Assembly: GCF_030316135.1 (NCBI RefSeq)
Contig: NZ_CP128185.1
Span: forward strand, 992,001 to 1,056,000
Length of the DNA stretch: 64,000 bases
From: Aliiglaciecola sp. LCG003
Lineage (GTDB): Bacteria; Pseudomonadota; Gammaproteobacteria; Enterobacterales; Alteromonadaceae
Direction: 5' to 3'
Shown: piece by piece, positions 5,465-35,870 of the stretch
Position numbering within the stretch: the first letter of the stretch is position 1
Layout: the number at the start of each line of letters is the position of its first letter
Notes under the pieces: model-generated
The model's input: the letters and a program-made list of their open reading frames with translations, nothing else
Told to the model about the DNA's origin: nothing
Databases searched by the model: none
Program-made: the position numbers and the translations under genes

Positions 5465-5506
5465 AGTATTTAAAAATTAGACATTTGTATTTAAAAATAG
5501 ACAAAC
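5465..5506 (+). repeat. Left-end TnsB-type binding repeats (two copies)
   Basis: Two adjacent direct copies: AGTATTTAAAAATTAGACAT (from 5465) and GTATTTAAAAATAGACAAAC (5487-5506). They match, in inverted orientation, two copies near the right end at 35771-35792 and 35849-35870. Repeated ~22-bp sites inside 5'-TGT termini are the signature of Tn7-family ends bound by TnsB. The binding role is inferred from family knowledge. Confidence 0.85.
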
Positions 5507-7339: not shown

Positions 7340-8848
7340 GTGCATACACTTTTTACGTGGCTAGGTAATCGCGATATTGAAAACATGGAACAGGAGCAGA
7401 ACGCTGCTATTGTTTCACTTGCGACAAAATCTGAAATTCCATTCGACAAGATAGTTATTCTTTCCAACAAAGATGAAGATAAGTGGGATTCGTTTGAGCG
7501 CTTTCTGAAAAAGCGGATGGCGATGATAAGCCGACCATCTGAAGATATTAAAATCCACTTAGCGCAAATCCAAAGTCCAATTGACTACCAATCTATTTCA
7601 ATCGAAACAGAAAAGTGGATCACAAAGTTATCTGAAGAGTCTGACATTCTCTCAATTAACCTAACTTCTGGTACGCCCGCAATGACAACGCTTTCTGTGC
7701 TTCATGGAAAGGGAAAGTTCAATACACGTTTTGTGCAATCGTCCCCAAAAAACGTTATTGAAGAAGTCGAAATACCACTGGATTTCGGTAAAGAATACGT
7801 AAAGTCTGCCTCAAAGAACATTGCTCATATAGCGACCTCATTACCTAAGGTACAAAAGGCGTTTTCAGAGTTAACTGCCAAGTCAAAAATAATGACTGGT
7901 GTGGTTGAAAAAGCCAAAAGAATAGCTGCGTCTGAAGTTCCAGCACTTATCTTAGGTGAAACAGGTACTGGTAAAGAGCTAATGGCACATGCTATCCACA
8001 AAGGTAGCCTGAGAGGCAATAAGCCTATAAGAGTCGTAAACTGTGGTGCGCTTGCTGAAAATCTAGTTGATTCAACACTGTTTGGTCATAAAAAAGGGGC
8101 GTTTACTGGCGCAGATAAAGATTTTGCAGGTCTATTTGAGCAAGCTAACGGTGGAACCTTATTTTTAGATGAAGTTGGTGAATTAAAGCCTGATATACAA
8201 GTTAAGCTTCTAAGGGCATTACAGCAAGGTGAAATTACCAGACTTGGTGATACGAAAACCATTAATGTCGATGTGCGCGTTATTGCTGCTACTCACCAAG
8301 ATTTGACCTCCTTGATTGAACAAGGGGATTTTCGTGAAGATCTTTTTTATCGATTAGCAGTGGGCATTATCAATATGCCACCACTTAGAGATCGACTTGA
8401 AGATATTCCAGTCATAGTTGAACAACTAACAGAACAAATTAATGCGTCGGGGGCCAAACACCCAGACTATATAAGTAAAAAAGTTTCCGAAAATGGAATT
8501 AAATTTATTTTATCGCAGTCATGGCTAGGCAATATTCGTGAATTATGGAGCACATTGAACAGGGCTTTTCTCTGGACAGATGCAAAATTGGTAGGTGAAA
8601 AGGAACTGTCTGACGCGATCATAAATAGAAGATTTGGTGAGCAAAGTAATGATGTAAGGCTGTCTTTTAACGACAAAGTAGATATAGTTCAACTGACTGA
8701 AAATTATCAAAAAAAGTATGTTGAAGCAGCATTAAAAGCAAGCGGTAATGTTAAGAAACACGCTACCCAAATGTTGGGCTTAAAAGACCATCAAACGCTA
8801 ACAAATTGGATGAAGCGATTGGGGATTCACAATGAAAAAGAACAATAA
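7340..8848 (+). CDS. RtcR-like sigma-54 activator with CARF-type sensor domain
   Basis: The 502 residues have three parts. Residues 1-~165 are a CARF/RtcR-type Rossmann sensor: it opens LFTWLGNRD and carries NLTSGTPAMTTL (SGTPA at 110-114) and RFVQSSP, which parallel the IHITTGT and RLIQSSP motifs of E. coli RtcR. Residues ~185-420 are the AAA+ sigma-54 domain, with Walker A GETGTGKE (~205-212), the sigma-54 contact loop GAFTGA (253-258) and Walker B LFLDEVGEL. The C-terminus has a Fis-type HTH (KKHATQMLGLKDHQTLTNWMKRL). Family members bind an RNA-derived or cyclic-nucleotide ligand, then remodel RNA polymerase-sigma54 at -24/-12 promoters. The start is GTG 7340; an in-frame stop at 7316 excludes longer forms. 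No rtcBA genes are nearby; it sits directly before a sigma-54 promoter and the hsdR operon. Confidence 0.9.
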   Translation: MHTLFTWLGNRDIENMEQEQNAAIVSLATKSEIPFDKIVILSNKDEDKWDSFERFLKKRMAMISRPSEDIKIHLAQIQSPIDYQSISIETEKWITKLSEESDILSINLTSGTPAMTTLSVLHGKGKFNTRFVQSSPKNVIEEVEIPLDFGKEYVKSASKNIAHIATSLPKVQKAFSELTAKSKIMTGVVEKAKRIAASEVPALILGETGTGKELMAHAIHKGSLRGNKPIRVVNCGALAENLVDSTLFGHKKGAFTGADKDFAGLFEQANGGTLFLDEVGELKPDIQVKLLRALQQGEITRLGDTKTINVDVRVIAATHQDLTSLIEQGDFREDLFYRLAVGIINMPPLRDRLEDIPVIVEQLTEQINASGAKHPDYISKKVSENGIKFILSQSWLGNIRELWSTLNRAFLWTDAKLVGEKELSDAIINRRFGEQSNDVRLSFNDKVDIVQLTENYQKKYVEAALKASGNVKKHATQMLGLKDHQTLTNWMKRLGIHNEKEQ

Positions 8849-25887: not shown

Positions 25888-26790
25888 ATGGAACTGACAA
25901 GACAATCTAAAATTTGGGGTTATCACTATGATCGGTTTAAGCATAAAGAGCAAAGTTATGTAATTCAAAATCAAATATTAGCGGATTGTATTGGTATTGG
26001 AGCTGGTAGTTCTCGATCTAAAGAAAGACCGATAGTAGGCTTTAACTATGGAAAAGATAACGGATATCAACTCTTAACGTACTTAACGGAATTGGCTCTA
26101 GGTTTTAGGAGATTACCGTGGTGCCAAGATAGGAATTACCGTAGAGGAGTATACAATGAAGAAAAATATATCTATGAGATTTTAAAGCAACTCGATCCGA
26201 ACACAATTGAACAGTTGGTGAGCGAGGTAAAAACGATTTATGAACATACTCAAGCTGAATTAAGTAAAGTGGGTTTGAGTAAAGTAAAACTTGTTCGCCA
26301 TATTGCAGCTAAAGACAACAGCTATGCTCAAACAATTATGGGAATCAGAAGTTGCGCAGAATTACTAGGTAAAAACGACATAGAATTTGAAATGGATATA
26401 TTAAACTCCTTTTCCTGTGAGGATGGAGCATATGGTCATTTATCGGATGTTCAAATCTATCATGAATTTGATGCCTCAGACGTTCTGTATTGTAGTAGCC
26501 TCCTCCACAGTGGTGAAAAAGACCGTATATTCATGGAAAGTGGTGAGTGGGTGGTAATCAATCGGTCAGCAAATGGGATCGTTAGTTTGCCAACTGACTC
26601 GGTGACATATGATAAAACTAAATGGTCAGATGGGCTTGAGCTAGAGTCGAACAAACGTAAGGCTCAGGAAATCCTTGAAGAACGCACGCCATTTCATATT
26701 AGGCAGGAGAGGGAGTTTGACATGAGATATGCATCTCTTGGAAAACACCCTAAATGGAAAAGAAAACTAGCTGAAATTTTACTTAAATGA
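25888..26790 (+). CDS. Unknown 300-aa partner of the helicase-nuclease
   Basis: Not recognised. An AAGGATTATTT ribosome binding site precedes the ATG. The sequence has no membrane segment. From about 135 it shows KVKLVRHIAA, then DILNSFSCEDGAYGH, then DRIFMESGEWVVINR. The order R ... SFS ... E-x-x-E recalls the R-S-E layout of ADP-ribosyltransferase folds, but the match is by eye and weak. It is expressed from the same promoter as the helicase-nuclease. Its 3' end overlaps by 12 bp the end of the convergent dead-methyltransferase gene. Confidence 0.6.
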   Translation: MELTRQSKIWGYHYDRFKHKEQSYVIQNQILADCIGIGAGSSRSKERPIVGFNYGKDNGYQLLTYLTELALGFRRLPWCQDRNYRRGVYNEEKYIYEILKQLDPNTIEQLVSEVKTIYEHTQAELSKVGLSKVKLVRHIAAKDNSYAQTIMGIRSCAELLGKNDIEFEMDILNSFSCEDGAYGHLSDVQIYHEFDASDVLYCSSLLHSGEKDRIFMESGEWVVINRSANGIVSLPTDSVTYDKTKWSDGLELESNKRKAQEILEERTPFHIRQEREFDMRYASLGKHPKWKRKLAEILLK

Positions 26791-28152
26791 AAAAGTAGAG
26801 TTTAGTTTTCGGATGATCAGATCGGTATGTCGCTGTTGTTTCAACAGCGCTTCCTGCACAGCGTCAACATCAATATCTTCATAATCACGTCTGTCATGAG
26901 CTATATAGGTATCAACGTTTAGAGAATAACCATGTTTGATAACTTTATTTGGTGTCACTAATTCAAGTTTTATTGATTGACTGTTCTGGTTTCGATAGGC
27001 TTCGGCGATGTCGTCAATGGACGTTAGAATGTTTATCCCTGCATCTGGGGTATAGCAATTTCTAGCGTCAATGAAGGTAATTTTGTCCTTGTTAGACCTT
27101 TTTTTATTAAGGACAATAGCGAATAAAGGAACTGTTCGAGCATCAAGCAGTTTAGGTGGAAGTTGAATAACAGCATCAATTTGATTGTTATCGACTAATT
27201 GTTTTCTGGAATGAAAGTCAGAGTGCCTGCTAAGCGGTCCTTTGGCAGTAATAATAACGGCCTTACCAGAGTCATTTAGCGAATAAAGCATGTGATGAAT
27301 TAACGCGTGCTCCCAAAAGCGAGACTTCAAAACAGCTTTAGGAATTCGGTTTTCTTCATAGTCTCCTTTTAGTTTTTTGCTGCTATCACCAGTAATGTCC
27401 TCTATTTCAGAATATATGCTTGGTTGAAGCAAAGTTATCGCATAATCAAATTCACCCTTTTTGACGTTGGCTACAGGAGTAAGTGCAAACGAGTTTATGG
27501 TGTTTAGTTTTTGAACTCCCGCTATAAGCAGTTGATGCCTGATATAGCGTGAGGATTGATTAACGCTTTCAGTGGTTATAGATAAATTCTGGTTTTGTAG
27601 AGCAAAATCAACTATGGATTCTCCTGCTATTGCGTATGGATCATAAACACGGCTTTTGGGTTTTGGTTGCAATAGTTTTGTATATATCTTGGCGAAATTA
27701 AAAGGCAGTGCTTGATATGAAAATTCCGCTGCAAATTGATCTGGTAAGTTCATTGCCTGAAGGCGCTGTAAAACCCTATCGTAAAGCGTGACACGATCCT
27801 GCCGAGATAACTTTTGGATGTCTGAATTATCACTTAATTGAAAAACTTCGTGAAATACAAGTGCTCCATCGCTGTTATTGGTTAACTCTACAAGTTCATT
27901 TAAAAAAGCTCTTAGAGCAGGAGTTAGTAACTCATTGGTTGAATACTTTCTAACTGTTGCCAAAAACTCATGGTTCGACTTTTTCTGCTTGCATTCGGTT
28001 ATTAAGTTATCCAAGTTTGGAGATTTTACTAATACACAAGTAAGAAGAGTAAGATAAAGATCTCGTTCATGGATTGTATCGTTGGTAAACCCAACATACT
28101 TGTAGGACTGAATGACGGTAGATACAAGGCTTTCGATTACATCATTATTCAT
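26779..28152 (-). CDS. HsdM-like protein with degenerate catalytic motif (dead methyltransferase)
   Basis: 457 residues colinear with HsdM: N-terminal helical region, then motif I as VYDPYAIAGESIVDFAL (171-184), a middle GKAVIITAKGPLSRHSDFHSRKQLVDNNQ, then AVIQLPPKLLDARTVPLFAIVLNKK. The last two align well with [19 protein letters not shown] and [19 protein letters not shown] of the active HsdM in this window. Motif IV, however, reads FDYAITLLQPSIYS (NPPF replaced by QPSI, ~243-246), and motif I has lost two of the three glycines. Catalysis is therefore unlikely. It follows the half-HsdS gene with a 4-bp ATGA overlap, S before M, the reverse of the usual order. I infer a DNA-binding, non-methylating role. 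Confidence 0.82.
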   Translation of the reverse strand: MNNDVIESLVSTVIQSYKYVGFTNDTIHERDLYLTLLTCVLVKSPNLDNLITECKQKKSNHEFLATVRKYSTNELLTPALRAFLNELVELTNNSDGALVFHEVFQLSDNSDIQKLSRQDRVTLYDRVLQRLQAMNLPDQFAAEFSYQALPFNFAKIYTKLLQPKPKSRVYDPYAIAGESIVDFALQNQNLSITTESVNQSSRYIRHQLLIAGVQKLNTINSFALTPVANVKKGEFDYAITLLQPSIYSEIEDITGDSSKKLKGDYEENRIPKAVLKSRFWEHALIHHMLYSLNDSGKAVIITAKGPLSRHSDFHSRKQLVDNNQIDAVIQLPPKLLDARTVPLFAIVLNKKRSNKDKITFIDARNCYTPDAGINILTSIDDIAEAYRNQNSQSIKLELVTPNKVIKHGYSLNVDTYIAHDRRDYEDIDVDAVQEALLKQQRHTDLIIRKLNSTFSFK

Positions 28153-28736
28153 TTTAGTGAACTCCAGATAGCTTCTGAAAATTTCTCCAGCTCTTGTTCT
28201 CTTTGTTTTATCAGTAACTGTTGTAAATGCTTTTCTTTCTTAATACTGGTGTCTAAATCAACTAGCATCTGCTGGTGCTCAATTGGCAGTTCAGTTGGCA
28301 ATTTTAGTTCGAGAAGCCTTTTTTTGGAAAGCGTACTCTGATAACTCCCGCTGCTATTGACCGTAAACCAGTTTTGAACAGACGCACTGTTTAAAAATAC
28401 TTCTAAATACTCAGGCGACAGTTTTGAAGAGTCATTAACTGTAATAATCAAAAAGTGCTGATTTGCTACAACATTGTCGGGTAAGTTTTTCAACAGAAGT
28501 GCAGTTTTGGTGTGGCCTTTGGCAACAAGTAAAATCTCATTCTCTTGCAATGTTTTTATTGTGCGACTTGAATCGATATTGGTTCTAGTAATATTTGCCC
28601 AGTCTAATCCCGCAAGCGTAAGATCTTGAACATCTCTAAGCTGTATGACTTGATATTCACCCTTGTCACTACTCTCTATTGCCTTGCTAAAAGTCCAACC
28701 CGTTCTAACTTTTATTATTGATTTTTCTTCAGTCAT
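28149..28736 (-). CDS. Half-HsdS, single target-recognition domain
   Basis: 195 residues (ATG 28736, chosen over GTG 28742 because AAGG is correctly spaced only for the ATG). It holds one TRD (~1-140; VIQLRDVQDLTLAGLDW, EILLVAKGHTKTALLLKN, NQHFLIITVNDSSKLSPEYLE). One conserved dimer helix follows (LPIEHQQMLVDLDTSIKKEKHLQQLLIKQ...). Normal HsdS has two TRDs; half-size S subunits are known to dimerise and read palindromic bipartite sites. The gene starts the S-M pair divergent from tnsA, with two CTCAC-N7-GTGAG elements in between. It probably forms an (MS)2 complex with the dead HsdM. Confidence 0.85.
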   Translation of the reverse strand: MTEEKSIIKVRTGWTFSKAIESSDKGEYQVIQLRDVQDLTLAGLDWANITRTNIDSSRTIKTLQENEILLVAKGHTKTALLLKNLPDNVVANQHFLIITVNDSSKLSPEYLEVFLNSASVQNWFTVNSSGSYQSTLSKKRLLELKLPTELPIEHQQMLVDLDTSIKKEKHLQQLLIKQREQELEKFSEAIWSSLK

Positions 28737-28779
28737 CGACACGCACCTTTGATTAATATCTATATGCTACCACCTTAAA

Positions 28780-28796
28780 CTCACTTTTGCAGTGAG
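28780..28796. promoter_or_regulatory. Operator-like palindrome copy A: CTCAC-N7-GTGAG
   Basis: CTCACTTTTGCAGTGAG, arms CTCAC (28780-28784) and GTGAG (28792-28796), spacer 7 bp. It sits 44 bp upstream of the half-HsdS ATG. Together with copy B (28843-28859) it has the bipartite palindromic form of a type I recognition site read by a half-S dimer, with an adenine in each half-site. The role is inferred. Confidence 0.65.
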
Positions 28797-28818
28797 AATT
28801 TGACAGGGCATCGAAATT

Positions 28819-28833
28819 GATCAACAATTGATC
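28819..28833. promoter_or_regulatory. Additional palindrome between the two operator copies
   Basis: GATCAA-CAA-TTGATC is a perfect inverted repeat with 6-bp arms, lying between copies A and B of the CTCAC-N7-GTGAG element. It could be a second regulator site or part of the divergent promoters; no binding protein can be named. Confidence 0.35.
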
Positions 28834-28842
28834 TTGCATTAA

Positions 28843-28859
28843 CTCACTGTGGGGGTGAG
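28843..28859. promoter_or_regulatory. Operator-like palindrome copy B: CTCAC-N7-GTGAG
   Basis: CTCACTGTGGGGGTGAG, arms CTCAC (28843-28847) and GTGAG (28855-28859), again with exactly 7 bp between. The shared context AACTCAC...GTGAGAA also matches copy A. The centres are 63 bp apart, about six helical turns, so bound complexes would face the same side of the DNA. It lies 53 bp upstream of the tnsA ATG. Confidence 0.65.
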
Positions 28860-28873
28860 AAGTGTCAAATGGC

Positions 28874-28893
28874 GAAAACTGTACGCAGTTTTC
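28874..28893. promoter_or_regulatory. Hairpin in the tnsA leader
   Basis: GAAAACTG-TACG-CAGTTTTC is a perfect 8-bp stem with a 4-nt loop, ending 19 bp before the tnsA ATG. No T-run follows. It may be an RNA structure limiting tnsA translation or a further operator. The role is not established. Confidence 0.4.
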
Positions 28894-28912
28894 ATTTATA
28901 TGGTTTATTAAT

Positions 28913-29755
28913 ATGGCACGAGGAAAATCCACCAAAAACATTACTGTTGCAAAGCGCAATAAAAGAATTAAGGAATGGGAAGCAGCCAACGCAAAAGGCT
29001 CAAAGTATATTCCCTTTATTGATCCCAGAGATATCAGGTCGGACGGGAGTAAAGGTCGAGTCCCTGACTATGAAAATAAAGGTCAAGACAAACGTGTTCT
29101 CTCAACCAATGAGAGGTTATATGCTTATATTTTAATGTTTGATGACCGAATCTTATGGTCAAAAGAGCAATATCCGCTTCTACCTATTGAAAGGTCCATT
29201 GCGATTGCTAAGCGGTTGAAGATCAGACATCCCAAATATCCCGGTACAAATGTAGATGCCGTTATGACATCTGATTTTTACTGTGGAAAATTTGATGGCT
29301 ATGAAGTTGTTTACTCGATTAAAGATGATGAGAAAATTAAATCATTAACTGACCGTCAAAAAAAGAATCTAGAAAATAAAGAAAAGATCCAGAGAGCTTT
29401 CTGGGAATCGCTAGGGATTAAATATCACTTAATTCACAGCTCAACTTACAAAAAGTCTATCTTTGCAAGAAATTTGGTAAAGCTTGCCAAGAGTTTAAAA
29501 ATTTCATTTGAGCTAGAGCTAATTCGAAAACGCTGGCTGAAATCATTTTCAATTAACCTAAGAAATACTCGTGAAAGACGACTAAGCTTTTTGCTCAACG
29601 CAACCTCAGAATCTATGGGGATTGAGTACCATCAAAGTGTTTCGTTATTCAATCATTGTCTTTGGCATAAATTGATAAAAGCAAATTTAAATATCCCGCT
29701 TAGATTTGAGAACTTGGTGTCTGACTTTGACATTCAGGTGGTTGCTCATGACTGA
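28913..29755 (+). CDS. tnsA: Tn7-like transposition protein TnsA (5'-strand endonuclease)
   Basis: TnsA nicks the 5' ends of the transposon so that, with TnsB, the element is cut out rather than copied. An upstream extension to 28862 is possible, but MARGKSTKNITVAKRNKRIKE at 28913 is the natural start (280 aa). The nuclease core is visible: STNERLYAYIL, then MTSDFYCGKFDGYEVVYSIKDDEKI (TSDF and SIK; Tn7 has TDF and QVK), followed by the basic C-terminal domain that contacts TnsC. The first gene of tnsABC, it overlaps tnsB by 8 bp. Its promoter region is shared with the divergent dead-methyltransferase pair. Confidence 0.9.
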   Translation: MARGKSTKNITVAKRNKRIKEWEAANAKGSKYIPFIDPRDIRSDGSKGRVPDYENKGQDKRVLSTNERLYAYILMFDDRILWSKEQYPLLPIERSIAIAKRLKIRHPKYPGTNVDAVMTSDFYCGKFDGYEVVYSIKDDEKIKSLTDRQKKNLENKEKIQRAFWESLGIKYHLIHSSTYKKSIFARNLVKLAKSLKISFELELIRKRWLKSFSINLRNTRERRLSFLLNATSESMGIEYHQSVSLFNHCLWHKLIKANLNIPLRFENLVSDFDIQVVAHD

Positions 29756-31985
29756 ACTTACTCAAAATATAATGGTTAAAGATTTGCTTGTGCCTGAGCA
29801 AGGTTCTGAATTAAGAGATGCTTCTATCGTTATCTTGATTGATTCCAAGGAAGATAAAGTATTTGTCATTGGCCTAAGTGACAATACTAAACCAAAAGCA
29901 ATGCCTTATAGACTGCTGTTAGAAGAGCTAATTCAAGGGACGATTAGAAAGGGATCTTTTGAAAAAACAGAGTATTGGAAAAAAGTTGAGGAGTCACTTG
30001 ATGATAAAGCTCGTACCAAGAGAGATTTAAAATTTGAGGTGATCAAACCGTTGGTTGAAAACTTAGACTTGTTTTTACGTAAGGGGAGTTATGGAAAAGG
30101 TTTGGTCAACAATTGTCTGGAGTTAGCGAAAGAAAATGGTTTAAAACAAACGACTAGATATCAAGTATATCAGTGGCTCTATCGTTATTTAAAGTGCAGA
30201 AGTAATAAAAACTGTTTTCTTAGAAAACCGGGAACAGGAAAAGGTAAGGATAAAAAGTACTCGAAAAAAACAGGGCCTAAGCGTGAAGAGGGGAATGTCT
30301 GTAACGGCAGGATGAGAGAGGAACTAGACAATAAACACATCAAGTCTATTATCCGAGAATTTTACGAATGTGATTCACCCATTCCTATCACCGAATGTTG
30401 GACTGAATATCACAATAAGTATCAATGTGACCCCGTATATGACCAGTTTACGGGGGAGTTTTTGAAATATGAGGAAAGAAAAGGTGAGCTATTTATAGGT
30501 AAATTTCAGTTCCTTGAATATGCATATAGTTTGACCAGTGATAATCGTCACCGAGTAATGAAAGCACAAGGTCTTTTTGATGAATATAACAAAAATATTA
30601 AAGGACTGAGTGGTGAAATTCACGAAATATTTGGTGATGCGCCGGGGGATTATCAGGTTGATGAAACTCCTTTAGCTATAGAGCTTGTTGATGAGTTTGA
30701 CAGAAATAGAAGGTTAGGTAGACCTACTTGTTACTCTGTAATTGATATGTTCTCTAGGGCGTGGGTGGGTTTGTTACTGACATTTGCGAAGCCATCGGCT
30801 CACACTGCAAGAGAAATAATTTTCATATCTTGTAGAAACAAAGAAGTATTCTGCAAAGAAATTGGTGTAAAGCTAAATGAACCTTGGTTGCCTGAGGGCA
30901 AGCCTGCAAGGATCATAGTAGATAATGCCGAGTTTGCTTCTTCTTTAACTGATGCTTTTAGCGCAGATGCAAATATCGAAGTGTTGTTTAACAAAGAAGG
31001 TAATTCACAGGAAAAAGGGCTAGTAGAGCGCAGACACAAAACCTTGGAAGAGTTTTTATTTGGGCGAATTCCGGGGGCGATTAGTAAAAAGTATGTAAAG
31101 AATTATCTAGCAAGAAGAGTCAGACGCAACGCTGTTCTCAACATAAGAGAGCTATATCAAATACTAATCGATTTTATAACGCGCTTTAATAAATTTTACC
31201 CGCTAAGTACGTTGCCTCTAAGTAAAGAGATGAAAGAAGACGGGGTAAAGAATATCCCTAATGAAAAATGGCTTTGGGGCTTAGTTCATAGGGCTGGTGA
31301 CTTACAATCAGTGGATGAAGATGAACTATTTATGCAATTACTTGAAAGTGCTCAAGTAACGGTTAAGCGAGACGGTCTATTCCTACAGGGGCGATACATC
31401 AGAACCTTTAAAAAGCGCAGAACATCTCAGGGGTTGCAATACTCCTGCGACTGGGCCTTGAAGAACTTCTTATATGAGAAGGAAGTAGGTAAGACATACG
31501 ACTGTAAGTTTATGCGTTATTCAATGAGTCGGATATGGATTGTTACTGACTTTGGTTTTCAGGAAGCCGTTTTACACCCCAATGATGCGAGTTTTGAATG
31601 GTGGAGTGCTGAGTGTATTCAAGACAAAAAGATCGAAGAAGCGATAGAAAAAGAAGTGCAAATGGATCAGTACCATCAAGAGCAGAGTAAAACAGTGGTA
31701 AATGCAAAGGCCAAAGTTAAAGATGCAAAAAAAGAACAAGCCCAAATAACTGTTAATGCGGCAAATAGCCAAGACGTGTCATCTAATCGTTTACAGGCAA
31801 TTGACAGAGAGATTGTAGGGTCGAAAGAACAGTTAAATAAATTCACTAACCAGAACTATCAAGAGGATAAAGATATAGAAGACAACTCTTCTTCGAAGCA
31901 AGTTCAGAACAATGAAAGTTTAACGAATGAAACGGCAAGTTTATTTGCTGATAAAACAAAAATGAGTAAACGGAGAAGAGGATAA
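29748..31985 (+). CDS. tnsB: Tn7-like transposase TnsB (DDE integrase)
   Basis: TnsB binds the end repeats and cuts and joins 3' strands. From ATG 29748 it has 745 residues. The DDE triad is intact: D305 (YQVDETPLAIE), D392 (IIVDNAEFAS) and E427 (GLVERRHK), with the last two 35 residues apart as in retroviral-type integrases. An N-terminal HTH region and a C-terminal charged tail (~640-745; rich in K, E, Q and N, ending KMSKRRRG) flank the core; the tail is where TnsB contacts TnsC. The start overlaps the tnsA stop; tnsC begins 5 bp after this gene. ATG 29748 is preferred over 29706, which would intrude into tnsA. Confidence 0.95.
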   Translation: MTELTQNIMVKDLLVPEQGSELRDASIVILIDSKEDKVFVIGLSDNTKPKAMPYRLLLEELIQGTIRKGSFEKTEYWKKVEESLDDKARTKRDLKFEVIKPLVENLDLFLRKGSYGKGLVNNCLELAKENGLKQTTRYQVYQWLYRYLKCRSNKNCFLRKPGTGKGKDKKYSKKTGPKREEGNVCNGRMREELDNKHIKSIIREFYECDSPIPITECWTEYHNKYQCDPVYDQFTGEFLKYEERKGELFIGKFQFLEYAYSLTSDNRHRVMKAQGLFDEYNKNIKGLSGEIHEIFGDAPGDYQVDETPLAIELVDEFDRNRRLGRPTCYSVIDMFSRAWVGLLLTFAKPSAHTAREIIFISCRNKEVFCKEIGVKLNEPWLPEGKPARIIVDNAEFASSLTDAFSADANIEVLFNKEGNSQEKGLVERRHKTLEEFLFGRIPGAISKKYVKNYLARRVRRNAVLNIRELYQILIDFITRFNKFYPLSTLPLSKEMKEDGVKNIPNEKWLWGLVHRAGDLQSVDEDELFMQLLESAQVTVKRDGLFLQGRYIRTFKKRRTSQGLQYSCDWALKNFLYEKEVGKTYDCKFMRYSMSRIWIVTDFGFQEAVLHPNDASFEWWSAECIQDKKIEEAIEKEVQMDQYHQEQSKTVVNAKAKVKDAKKEQAQITVNAANSQDVSSNRLQAIDREIVGSKEQLNKFTNQNYQEDKDIEDNSSSKQVQNNESLTNETASLFADKTKMSKRRRG

Positions 31986-31989
31986 AGAT

Positions 31990-33396
31990 ATGACATACAA
32001 AATCGCAAAATATACACCATCGGACAATCCAGACTATAAAGGTAACCCATATATTGAGAGTTTGCCGTTAAGGCTTAACCCTGATGATTTTTGGGAAAGA
32101 GTCCAAGACGAAGCTTATGCACCTGAAGATTTATCTAAATTTAGTACAGAGACACTAGAGGGTATGGCGTCAAATATCATGGAGTCCGTTTGTACTACGT
32201 CCATTTATTATGACGTGTACTGTGATTTATTGGGGACCATTAAGGTCGGTTACAAAAACAGAAACCCTTTAAATGAAGATGTTAAAAAGTGGCAACAAAA
32301 GATAGCTACGACAACATATAAAAGAACTCGCACTACCGCACCATCGCTAAAATTTACAGGTTATTCAGGCTTAGGAAAAACGACCCTTGTAGACTCGGTT
32401 CTAGGTTTAATCGAGCCAGTTCTAATCCATCCATCTGATGGTCCGCTGAATGAAGAAAGAGTTCAAATTGTATATCTTAAGGTCAATATTCCCGGTGATT
32501 CTAATACCAAAGATATTTGTTTGGATTTGTTTGAGCAAATTGATGGGATTTTAGGGTTGAAAGGGAAAGACAGCTACCACTCCATGTATTGTGACAAAAG
32601 CCGCTCTGATTGCATCAAAGGGTTGGTTAAAATTTGCACAACTCTTTTGGTTGGGATGATCATTTTTGATGAAATGCAAAATATATGTACCGCCGTTGCA
32701 AATGAGAAAAACCTAATTTTTAAGTTTTTCGACAAACTGACTAACGAAGCCAAAGTTCCTACGTTAAAAATTGGTACTTCAAAAGCAAATAAACTTACTG
32801 ACAGCGAGTTTTCAAACGCTAGACGTTTAGGCATTCCTTACGATTGGAAGAATTATACAATAAATGATACTGATTGGACTACATTGGTGGAATATGCATG
32901 GAGTTATCAACTTTTGCCAGAGTTCGAACCTTTAACAGTTCGATATAAAAAGAAAATTTATGAATTGACGAGAGGAATACCGCATTGCTTATTTTTCCTC
33001 ATAGAACAGGCTAATGTTTTAGGGTTGAGAAGTGGTGAAGCTAAATTTTCTTTGGACCTTTTAGATATCGTGTTTGAAAAGCGCTTTTCAATTATGAAAA
33101 CAGGAATAATAGCGTTGAGGCATGGGAATGTTGCCGCATTCGATGATTTGATGAGTGCAGGTCAATATATTGATAAAGAAGTAGAAAAACTGGTTAAAAA
33201 GCTTATTAAAATTGGCGACAACATAAATTTAAGTAAGGCTGAAGCAAAGTCTCTTTATGAACACGTAGAAAAGTACTTGCCAGAATATAAACCTACCAAG
33301 GCAGAAGAAAAAATTCTGGATAAGCTATTCAAGAAAGCTGAGTTAGAAGCAACTGATTTAATCGAAGAGGATGGATACTTGAGGGTGCCAATGTGA
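31990..33396 (+). CDS. tnsC: Tn7-like AAA+ regulator TnsC
   Basis: TnsC is the ATP-dependent matchmaker between the TnsAB transposase and the target selector TnsD/TniQ. The 468 residues contain Walker A GYSGLGKTT (~124-132), Walker B MIIFDEMQNI (D227, E228) and sensor-like KIGTSKANKLTDSEFSNARR. The N-terminus (YTPSDNPDYKGNPYIESLP) resembles the TnsB-interaction region. The gene overlaps the following tniQ start by 4 bp (GTGA). It looks fully functional. Confidence 0.92.
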   Translation: MTYKIAKYTPSDNPDYKGNPYIESLPLRLNPDDFWERVQDEAYAPEDLSKFSTETLEGMASNIMESVCTTSIYYDVYCDLLGTIKVGYKNRNPLNEDVKKWQQKIATTTYKRTRTTAPSLKFTGYSGLGKTTLVDSVLGLIEPVLIHPSDGPLNEERVQIVYLKVNIPGDSNTKDICLDLFEQIDGILGLKGKDSYHSMYCDKSRSDCIKGLVKICTTLLVGMIIFDEMQNICTAVANEKNLIFKFFDKLTNEAKVPTLKIGTSKANKLTDSEFSNARRLGIPYDWKNYTINDTDWTTLVEYAWSYQLLPEFEPLTVRYKKKIYELTRGIPHCLFFLIEQANVLGLRSGEAKFSLDLLDIVFEKRFSIMKTGIIALRHGNVAAFDDLMSAGQYIDKEVEKLVKKLIKIGDNINLSKAEAKSLYEHVEKYLPEYKPTKAEEKILDKLFKKAELEATDLIEEDGYLRVPM

Positions 33397-34292
33397 GTTT
33401 GGCCTCGTTAAATATCTTACCAAATGAACACTATATGTCATGGTTTGTAAGGAATTCACAATTTCGTGCTTACCCTGAATTTAAGCATTACTTAACTAGC
33501 AATCAGATAAACTCTGAAACATTTAAAGCATATGAAGTTATCCATCCTTCGGTTAAGCATTTTTTACAGTGTTTTGGTCAAAGCGATAGCCTGTTAAGAG
33601 AGCATACTTTATTTCCTTTATGGCAAATATCTGTAGCTCATGAGCTTGATCATAAAGTGCTACTAAAAAATAGTTTTCTTGATTTACACAACAGTAATGG
33701 AGAAAAAACGTTATTTCAGTTTGACCGAAGTTGACATAGTTGTCCGACATGTAGAAAGGAGGATATAGATAGTTTTGGTACTAGCTATTGGCATACACAG
33801 CATCAAATCCCAAGCGTGTATTCGTGTTACAAGCACAACACAATGTTAGAAAAGGCAAAGTATCCAGTTGTAGATTTGAAAACAGGGGTTCTGCCGCACC
33901 AAGTGAAAAAGTGGTGTAAGTTGCTAGAGGCGGAAACACCAGAGCTAGGTAAATGGCAAAACTTTTTATATTCCGTTCAAGAAAAATTGATGGAAAACTC
34001 GTTACCTTTTATTGAAATTAAAAATCGAATTACGACTGCTTTGGGCATGGATAGCATTTCGAATCATCAATGTAGTAAACACACTGATGAATTAACTCTT
34101 AAGTTTGAACGTGAGTTAAATATGGAATTGCTGGCCTATTTGTACACCGATTATACGAGAGCTTCAAACAAAGGCACTCCCAAGGTAATAGGAAACTTGT
34201 ATAGAGGGATCAACAATCCATACAAAATTAGATCTCCGATACACTGGATATTGCTTGGTTATTGGCTTTTTCCTGATGAACTAACAACTTAA
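33393..34292 (+). pseudogene. TniQ-family target selector interrupted by an in-frame TGA
   Basis: Residues 1-113 (GTG start 33393, MSLASLNILPNEHYMSWFVR) are a TniQ N-terminus. After a single TGA at 33732-33734 the same frame continues HSCPTCRKEDIDSFGTSYWH and YSCYKHN, the TniQ zinc-finger block, then runs to a stop at 34290-34292. No other stop or frameshift exists, so the full gene would be 299 residues, a short TniQ. The zinc block aligns with YCPLCAEKDAQQFGTSYWH of the downstream TnsD. Either this is a recent nonsense mutation or the protein is made by rare readthrough. The C-terminal part (34292 end) carries no extra HTH. Confidence 0.8.
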
Positions 34293-34307: not shown

Positions 34308-35747
34308 ATGACGAACCAGCTATTTCCTGCTCCATTTCCAGATGAGACTGTTTATAGCTGGGTTTGTCGCTTCCATTTTTTTGCAGCCCATGCTGACTTT
34401 AAAAGAGATACATTAAGAAAATTAGGTATCAGGGACAATCGCCCCGCTAACGAATTTCCCCCTTACTTAAAAAAGTTATCCGAGCTATCTGGGGTGAATT
34501 TGGATCAACTTATTTTTTGTTTCACTAACGCTCATTACTTTCAACCATTCATGGATCAAATCATGTACGGTGAGATTTGTGAAAAGCTTAAGAGAGGCGA
34601 TACTTCAAGTTTACAGAGCCGCATTGGCGCTGTTGCCAACAGAATAACTCCCGGTCAATTACTAAAATATTGTCCACTTTGTGCCGAAAAGGATGCTCAA
34701 CAGTTTGGGACTTCATACTGGCACAGAAGTCATCAGCTTGTGGGTGTTACCGCATGTGAAACACACGGTATACATTTACTAAGTGTTAAACGTAATACTA
34801 AAACACCACAATTGCCGCCTTTATCTGGATGCATTCATCCATCCTCCTTGCTTGAAATAAGGCTATGCAAGTTAATAAAAAGCGAGATATTTGATAATGA
34901 TGCACAGTGGTCCAAAGTTGATACTTACCAAGCTTATTTTAATAGACTCGGTGAGATGGAATTATTAACTCAATCAGGGAGAATAAAGCAAAAGCAACTG
35001 AAGGAATATTTAATACAACACTTGGATGGTATGTCTGAATTTGACTATCCATACCCTCAGGTTTTCGATGCTGCATTGGATGGAAAACTGTCTGAAAGTA
35101 TGTTCTACAGAGCAGCTTGCAACCATCAACCAATAAAACACTTTGTTTTTATCTCTGCACTTTTTGATTCATGGGATGACTTTAAGCAAAGTGCAAATAT
35201 TGAAGAAATTAAAGAAGACTCTCCAGTTACCGAACAACAACACCATCTACAAAGTGTTAATTGGTACGAAGGGCTAAAAATGATTTCAGAAGGAAAAAGT
35301 TTAAGAACTACTGCCCTTTTTCTAGGAACAACAGTAAGCACCATAAAGATAAAAGCTCAGCAGAATAACTTAGCCATTGATTTAAGGCCATCAAAAATCA
35401 CTGAACTCATTGAGAGAGCCATTTGGCGCAAGTTAGTTGTTGGTGTAAAAACACAGGATATAGCCGATGAGTTCAATGTGTCAGTAGGAGCAGTTGAGAA
35501 AGTTTTAACTAAACATGTTTGGCTTCCAGAGCTAAGAAAGCGCATCTGGTATTTTGAAAAGCAAAAGTTTCATGCGAAACGAATCTCGGATTTTATAGAT
35601 GAACACCCAGACGCTACTCGTAATGATATTAGAAAAAAAGTCAAATCGAGCTATTATTGGCTGTATAAGCATGAAAAAGAGTTGTTGTACCAGCTACTTC
35701 CTGAACGAGTAAAAGCCATTTATTGGCCTAGAAAATCCAAGAAATAA
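34308..35747 (+). CDS. tnsD: TnsD/TniQ-family attachment-site selector
   Basis: TnsD proteins bind a fixed chromosomal site and recruit TnsC. It is 479 residues long. The N-terminal TniQ domain (FPDETVYSWVCRFHFFAAHADF) is followed by zinc-finger residues CPLCAEKDAQQFGTSYWHRSHQ...CETHG. The C-terminal half has two HTH-like repeats (GKSLRTTALFLGTTVSTIKIKA; VGVKTQDIADEFNVSVGAVEKVL) fit for sequence-specific binding. It is intact and is the last gene before the right transposon end. Because the element lies 5 bp past gcvP, I infer that this protein reads the gcvP 3' end, as Tn7 TnsD reads glmS. Confidence 0.88.
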   Translation: MTNQLFPAPFPDETVYSWVCRFHFFAAHADFKRDTLRKLGIRDNRPANEFPPYLKKLSELSGVNLDQLIFCFTNAHYFQPFMDQIMYGEICEKLKRGDTSSLQSRIGAVANRITPGQLLKYCPLCAEKDAQQFGTSYWHRSHQLVGVTACETHGIHLLSVKRNTKTPQLPPLSGCIHPSSLLEIRLCKLIKSEIFDNDAQWSKVDTYQAYFNRLGEMELLTQSGRIKQKQLKEYLIQHLDGMSEFDYPYPQVFDAALDGKLSESMFYRAACNHQPIKHFVFISALFDSWDDFKQSANIEEIKEDSPVTEQQHHLQSVNWYEGLKMISEGKSLRTTALFLGTTVSTIKIKAQQNNLAIDLRPSKITELIERAIWRKLVVGVKTQDIADEFNVSVGAVEKVLTKHVWLPELRKRIWYFEKQKFHAKRISDFIDEHPDATRNDIRKKVKSSYYWLYKHEKELLYQLLPERVKAIYWPRKSKK

Positions 35748-35770: not shown

Positions 35771-35870
35771 AAATGTCTAAATTTTAAATACTATCTCGCT
35801 TAGAATAGGTTTTTAAAAAATATATAAAAATCAGTTGGTTAATTTTTTAAATGTCTATTTTTAAAATACT
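35771..35870 (-). repeat. Right-end TnsB-type binding repeats
   Basis: Two clear copies of the end repeat on the minus strand: 35771-35792 (core ATGTCTAAATTTTAAATACT) and 35849-35870 (core ATGTCTATTTTTAAAATACT). They are inverted relative to the left-end copies. The segment between them is AT-rich and may hold one degenerate copy around 35803-35824. The outer copy is followed by the 8-bp terminus TAATCACA (35871-35878). Confidence 0.85.

Follow-up and report, generated by a model that had tools for sequence, protein, structure and literature searches.

The locus studied here lies in a 64,000-nucleotide (nt) stretch of Aliiglaciecola sp. LCG003 (assembly GCF_030316135.1, contig NZ_CP128185.1, positions 992,001-1,056,000, forward strand; hereafter the window), in which two genes resembling the specificity (S) and modification (M) genes of type I restriction-modification (RM) systems stand divergent from tnsA of a Tn7-like element. 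The S-like gene encodes a half-sized specificity subunit (here denoted hS) and the M-like gene an HsdM homologue that has lost its catalytic motifs (denoted dM). We propose that the two proteins form an inactive 'Type 1 1/2' methyltransferase, which probably serves as an operator-binding repressor of tnsABC and of its own operon. The original prediction for this DNA had pictured the pair either as a repressor of itself and of tnsABC, which the present results support without proving, or as an architectural factor, a variant that is less supported because the palindromes described below do not lie at the transposon ends.

The hS gene (28149-28736, minus strand) encodes 197 amino acids with one Methylase_S domain (Pfam, E 4e-08) and thus, as had been claimed, a single target recognition domain (TRD); the open reading frame (ORF) reaches a GTG at 28742, and the start is placed at the ATG at 28736. 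Its AlphaFold2 model (predicted local distance difference test, pLDDT, 88.8) shows a long C-terminal helix, residues 154-196, and the best matches in the PDB are Esub1, BsaXI S and PacII S. The dM gene (26779-28152, minus strand; Pfam N6_Mtase, E 2.5e-24) comes after hS, and the two ORFs share a 4-nt overlap. In dM, LLQPS occupies the position of NPPF in active HsdM (motif IV), and DPYAIAG replaces the glycine-rich S-adenosylmethionine (SAM) motif I, confirming the predicted loss of both. The corresponding motifs of active methyltransferases, NPP(F/Y/W) and a glycine-rich motif I, are found in the active HsdM encoded elsewhere in the window, as they are in two further HsdM proteins used as controls. 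The further claim that the rest of the fold aligns with this active HsdM holds for the structure model, from which the match over the remainder of dM comes; by BLASTP the similarity is significant only over residues 283-416 (28% identity, E 7e-9). The dM model (pLDDT 84) resembles PacII M and EcoR124I M, and type I M subunits head the Foldseek results (E 1.3e-17), indicating an HsdM-like fold. No hsdR adjoins the pair, which is thus not a complete type I RM system; an R-M-S set with its own M and S lies ~11 kb away in the window. The pair does not belong to MADS, since hS scores 27.5 bits against the MAD5 cut-off of 400 and dM has no MAD2 match (NCBIfam, E 0.01); on the same question PADLOC returned weak matches only.

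Between hS and tnsA (28913-29755, plus strand; ATG start at 28913; Pfam TnsA N, E 2.2e-08) lies a gap of 176 bp (28737-28912) containing two interrupted palindromes, CTCAC-N7-GTGAG, which we regard as putative operators: dyad 1 (CTCACTTTTGCAGTGAG, 28780-28796) and dyad 2 (CTCACTGTGGGGGTGAG, 28843-28859), 63 bp apart from start to start, in agreement with the coordinates first given. The two were said to have identical arms and identical spacers; the arms and the spacer length are indeed the same, and the spacer sequences differ. Exact CTCAC-N7-GTGAG occurs at two sites in the whole 4,411,932-bp genome, both of them in this gap. Dinucleotide shuffles contained any pair of dyads with identical 5-bp arms in 1 of 2000 cases for a 210-bp region, and an identical dyad pair in 0 of 500 for the 176-bp gap. 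Between the dyads, a sigma-70-like consensus scan of 28600-29000 detected one site, the putative tnsA promoter TTGACA-17-AACAAT (28800-28828, plus strand, 10/12). The scan alone is weak, as shuffles average 1.4 sites; in addition, the TTGACA -35 element does not vary among five aligned loci. Three base pairs separate the end of dyad 1 from this -35, and dyad 2 falls at about +8 to +24 relative to the inferred tnsA start site, so that the palindromes bracket the promoter as repressor-type sites would, an arrangement that fits repression of tnsA. The layout is also usable for an activator: hS-dM could bind the dyads and activate tnsA, or toggle between activation and repression, from dyad 1, which lies just upstream of the -35 of promoters whose -10 hexamers are poor. 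We consider this unlikely, as the -35 is a perfect TTGACA and the second dyad, just past the inferred start in all five loci of the branch described below, suits a block. The geometry thus points to repression rather than activation.

The original prediction called for a search of other Tn7-like elements for such pairs. We found hS-dM divergent from a tnsA-like gene in all ten distinct intact loci: the window, L126 (Rheinheimera soli), L127 (Rheinheimera sp. 1928-s), L128 (a Colwellia metagenome-assembled genome), L134 (Pseudoalteromonas aurantia), L031 and L033 (genome G070), L032 and L034 (G048) and L129 (G1026). L125 repeats L032, with an identical dM, and was counted once; L130 (G908), a 152-amino-acid C-terminal dM fragment, was excluded. 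The Pfam TnsA match is above the cut-off in six of the nine loci outside the window and below it in L032, L033 and L034, and the L128 contig ends inside tnsB. Among 395 sampled genomes of the host's family, a dM profile at E<=1e-45 detected the pair family in nine, G908 having the fragment only. At E<=1e-25 it matched 97 of 394 sampled genomes of the order and 30 of 369 of the class; apart from known members these matches are mostly limited to the C-terminal HsdM region. Searches of three genera found the pair family in 2/108, 2/22 and 2/39 genomes, and a species-genome scan yielded six loci, one of them new (L134).

Motifs I and IV are both lost in dM of all ten loci, motif IV reading QPS, QPT, QPK, EPT or KLP and motif I being degraded. 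Comparison of L128 with L134 gave dN/dS values of 0.17 for dM and 0.18 for hS, a single comparison that indicates maintenance of the dead M in these two loci. The motif losses bear directly on the possibility that hS-dM is an active methyltransferase marking the dyads, with regulation by methylation. CTCAC-N7-GTGAG does offer an adenine in each half, and the two adenines of CYCAC-N7-GTGRG are 9 bp apart, within the type I intervals tabulated in PMC3874165; distant pairs on lactobacillus plasmids, moreover, keep DPPY and a glycine-rich motif I. With motif IV replaced and motif I degraded in 10/10 loci, we rejected an active enzyme on its motifs and find it scarcely credible.

Exact paired dyads are present in six of the ten loci, so that the expected conservation of paired dyads holds for these and finds no support in L032, L033, L034 and L129. 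The arms are CTCAC-N7-GTGAG in the window and L126, CCCAC-N7-GTGGG in L127, L128 and L134, and CATTC-N8-GAATG in L031; of 2000 shuffles each, any pair appeared in 1 for the window, 0 for L126, 0 for L127, 4 for L128, 0 for L134 and 2 for L031. If the longest ORFs are taken as its limits, the L127 gap shrinks to 84 bp and no longer includes dyad 1, which falls within the longest hS ORF and before the probable hS start in the alignment; the L127 pair was therefore counted from the wider-region test. Single dyad-like elements in L032/L034 and in L033 were not counted as pairs, and retesting the whole gaps of L032 and L033 with later S starts still gave no pair. A near-pair in L129 was dropped, as 41 of 100 shuffles match it. 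Within the CYCAC branch, the T/C change in one arm is mirrored by A/G in the other in all four half-sites of the two dyads, a pattern to be expected if the reading protein is symmetric. In both CTCAC hosts the motif occurs genome-wide at the locus only (2/2 sites in G000 and 2/2 in G1016), and CCCAC-N7-GTGGG has 2/2 (G1106), 2/4 (G1124) and 2/5 (G971) of its genome sites at the locus.

The covariation of TRD and dyad that had been proposed as a check found support at L126, the discriminating locus because hS and transposase ancestry part there. The window and L126 share 56% identity in hS, 48% in dM and 26% in TnsB; L126 and L127 share 42% in hS, 35% in dM and 48% in TnsB; and L127 and L134 share 62% in hS and 68% in TnsB. 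The TnsB of L126 thus sides with L127, and its hS and CTCAC arms with the window; on these sequences the dyad arms appear to follow hS, not the transposase. L128 and L134 are 88% identical in hS and 90% in dM, versus 48% in TnsA and 42% in TnsB. Their DNA is mostly ~90% identical through dM, hS, both dyads and the promoter, with one 60-bp stretch of 57% inside hS, and ~55% identical from the tnsA start onwards, a drop that indicates cassette exchange between transposases with its breakpoint at the tnsA start. If so, this swap of a whole cassette, ending where the tnsA coding sequence begins, amounts to a natural experiment that ties regulator to operator. In related tns operons without hS-dM, no exact dyad pair was found upstream of tnsA (0/4, whole gap to the next gene). 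These pairless controls were all that two TnsB profiles returned without the pair, among 3/295 and 5/162 genomes: L160 (TnsA/TnsB 66/70% identical to L127), L168 (54/54% to L034), and L169 and L170 (TnsB 40% to L032).

These comparisons also weigh on a different account, in which the dyads serve a different binder (a host regulator, TnsB or some other protein of the transposon) and hS-dM, the decaying remnant of a restriction system, stands there by chance. The four of ten pair loci that have no supported dyad pair speak for it. A chance remnant is hard to reconcile with the low dN/dS of hS and dM, and an unrelated binder with the absence of the dyads from all four pairless relatives, the agreement of the arms with hS, the L128/L134 breakpoint, which keeps the dyads with hS-dM, and the dissimilarity between the dyads and the window's end repeats; we therefore rate this account as rather improbable.

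Several results weigh against an S-M repressor acting through paired dyads. In 4/10 loci (L032, L033, L034 and L129) there is no statistically supported pair, and the L031 pair is weaker in other tests, with 4 of 100 shuffles under a looser 6-bp score and 6 of 500 for its 629-bp gap. The L031 motif, CATTC-N8-GAATG, also does not have the type I spacing of methylatable adenines. CCCAC-N7-GTGGG occurs off-locus in two of the three CCCAC hosts, and uniqueness of the dyad is therefore not general. The separation of hS from tns ancestry rests mainly on L126, together with the L128/L134 breakpoint. Finally, the scan of 28600-29000 found no minus-strand promoter for hS, and we therefore infer self-control from position only.

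Taking the repressor as the preferred explanation, we infer binding, M2S2 assembly, repression, self-control and zygotic induction as follows. Two hS and two dM chains would assemble into M2S2 with the 'Type 1 1/2' architecture, the single-TRD S subunits pairing through their long helices and each being held on DNA by one M subunit. Half-S enzymes work as homodimers, their sites being interrupted palindromes, and M.AhdI consists of 2M+2S; S alone and M alone do not bind DNA (PMC3874165). This dependence of type I S subunits on M for DNA binding would be the reason for retaining the dead M. Such a complex would no longer methylate and would act as a sequence-specific transcription factor, binding both palindromes of the hS-tnsA gap. 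With dyad 1 just upstream of the -35 and dyad 2 just downstream of the start, tnsABC would be repressed, and the hS-dM operon probably too, because dyad 1 lies toward these divergent genes. The likely outcome would be a transposase that is silent in a resident element and expressed in a burst when the element enters a new cell, until the repressor accumulates; for I-F3 elements that carry Xre regulators, zygotic induction has been described (PMC11406308). If this is true, a restriction-modification enzyme stripped of its chemistry has become a transcription factor controlling transposition, which would explain why the M subunit is kept after loss of its active site. It would also give Tn7-like elements a regulator outside the helix-turn-helix (HTH) and MerR kinds, built on a DNA-binding scaffold that reads both half-sites with one exchangeable domain.

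The closest known enzymes are the 'Type 1 1/2' methyltransferases M.AhdI, M.BsaBI and M.PshAI and the half-S enzymes NgoAV, EcoR124I-delta50/EcoR124INT and EcoDXXI-deltaC, which likewise combine a separate M with a single-TRD S and read interrupted palindromes such as GCA-N8-TGC and GAA-N7-TTC (PMC3874165, PMC3320862). Those enzymes are active, whereas hS-dM has lost motifs I and IV in 10/10 loci; moreover, its candidate sites are putative operators beside tnsA rather than a genome-wide mark. In an open-access library, from which most subscription journals are missing, we found no S-M-type regulator of Tn7-like elements; the regulators found there are the MerR-type CvkR and Xre proteins. CvkR of type V-K CRISPR-associated transposons is likewise encoded by its element, represses a Tn7-like transposase operon and recognises a palindrome, but it is an unrelated protein with a MerR fold and a continuous 15-bp motif (PMC9938897). 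RtaC and RtbC, Xre-family proteins of I-F3 CRISPR-associated transposons, are similarly co-opted transposition regulators in Tn7-like elements, with zygotic induction (PMC11406308), yet they are HTH proteins and not S-M complexes. Esub1 (PDB 8vsq, 8vsr), the best structural match of hS, is a single-TRD chain (template modelling score, TM, 0.70-0.71; 20% identity), but the titles of its PDB entries place it with the phage protein Prx. RptR, a repressor of type I RM defence islands, also binds operators and is tied to type I RM genes, but it is a small homodimer on TAGCTA repeats rather than an S-M pair (PMC12255303).

Pairs of a half-S and a 424-457-amino-acid N6_Mtase protein were also observed immediately ahead of type I RM genes, both in Gammaproteobacteria and on plasmids of lactobacilli (L035, 6998-8874; L037, 7171-9041; L171, 8438-10308; L172, 1673-3603). 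They share with hS-dM the S-then-M order, similar sizes and, in several cases, paired dyads near S and upstream of it, and differ in not facing tnsA; the S-M order of the window, predicted to be reversed, is therefore as described and not unique. L171 is on a Moellerella plasmid and L172, L173, L174 and L176 are on lactobacillus plasmids, as is L175, a pair without an RM operon. Motif IV reads EPPM or EPPF in L035, L037 and L171 and DPPY in the lactobacilli, whose M proteins are 98-100% identical and therefore represent one lineage; their 184-amino-acid partner protein has no Pfam match. L035 and L037 each carry TTCGT-N9-ACGAA twice (4 and 3 of 2000 shuffles), L172 carries GTAATT-N6-AATTAC and a near copy (0/100), and L171 is weaker (3/100). 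Such pairs possibly control type I RM operons in general, and the comparison suggests, as a lead rather than a result, that the transposon regulator derives from a controller of this kind. A wider conjecture, to which we give slightly less than even weight, is that a class of transcription factors evolved from type I S-M complexes. Its members would be half-S/M pairs that recognise, at their own promoter, paired interrupted palindromes, and they would range from possibly active autoregulators before type I RM operons (DPPY) through degenerate forms (EPPM/EPPF) to dead controllers of Tn7-like transposases, with specificity reprogrammed by TRD change.

The element itself has tnsA, tnsB, tnsC and a tniQ/tnsD-family gene in one operon on the plus strand. 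The start of tnsB (29751-31985) is inferred, its ORF opening at 29706, and TnsB was assigned by weak transposase matches and alignment only (24-26% identity to relatives' TnsB). tnsC (31990-33396) matches Pfam AAA_22 and TniB, and the TniQ/TnsD-family gene (34308-35747) matches TniQ (E 2.2e-19) and TnsD (E 1.6e-15). Probable TnsB-type repeats of the AAATGTCTA type stand as inverted copies at the left end (5465-5503, minus strand), and a repeat search placed two copies at the probable right end (35771-35870, plus strand). Three copies of AAATGTCTAWWTTTWAAATACT are present, inverted between the two ends, a number reached by 0 of 100 shuffles; by eye there is no clear 5-bp target duplication around them. 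The dyads as TnsB sites were rejected for the window, given these unlike end repeats and the absence of the dyads elsewhere in the genome. The positions of the repeats suggest an element of ~30 kb that contains hS-dM and whose cargo includes type I RM, McrBC-like and further defence-like genes. The presence of type I RM genes in the same element, and the reported ability (PMC3874165) of half-S subunits to associate with S and M subunits other than their own, would agree with hS-dM acting in anti-restriction or specificity change, with hS or dM joining host type I complexes or capturing HsdR to protect the entering element, with the dyads merely its own operator. This would leave the fixed position divergent from tnsA and the bracketing of the promoter unexplained, and we consider it very unlikely.

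Searches of mobile DNA returned 1861 plasmid records matching dM, none with 80% coverage at one place, and 15 phage records, none with 80% coverage; in viral_contigs there were 19 loci, of which the seven inspected show type I RM-like genes and no tns genes among the reference matches, and a second search gave none. TnsB searches of plasmids found relatives at <60% identity. A near-identical ~22-kb transposon carrying hS-dM was observed in two genera (L144-L149; G1019 contig 13 and G048 contig 1), with 99.7% identity over 19.2 kb plus 2.1- and 1.1-kb pieces between Colwellia chukchiensis and a genome of another genus, which suggests that the transposon was recently transferred horizontally.

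Upstream of tnsA we noticed other features. A GATC (Dam-type) site at 28819-28822 adjoins the -10 of the putative promoter, and GATC stands beside the -10 in five called promoters (window, L127, L128, L134 and L033) and, by eye, in L126; among the four pairless controls, one has it within 300 bp upstream of tnsA. Possibly, tnsA is under Dam control. Downstream of dyad 2 and ahead of the start codon, the tnsA leader contains a hairpin with perfect 8-bp arms (28874-28893), terminator-like by scan and not visible in the aligned relatives. The hS-tnsA gaps of L031, L032, L034 and L129 are ~410-680 bp long and show, by eye, a purine-rich stretch resembling a ribosome-binding site that precedes a start codon well ahead of tnsA, as though a short leader peptide were translated from it. 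In L033 the pair lies between tnsA and M-S genes that share its reading direction.

Elsewhere in the window element, short ORFs at 33393-33734 and 33816-34292 occupy the place of a single 298-amino-acid TniQ-like ORF of L134, so that the first TniQ gene looks split. A sigma-54 activator protein (7340-8848), encoded immediately ahead of the type I RM genes, has a sub-threshold match to a Csm6-type CARF domain at its N-terminus; it perhaps senses nucleotides and regulates that operon.

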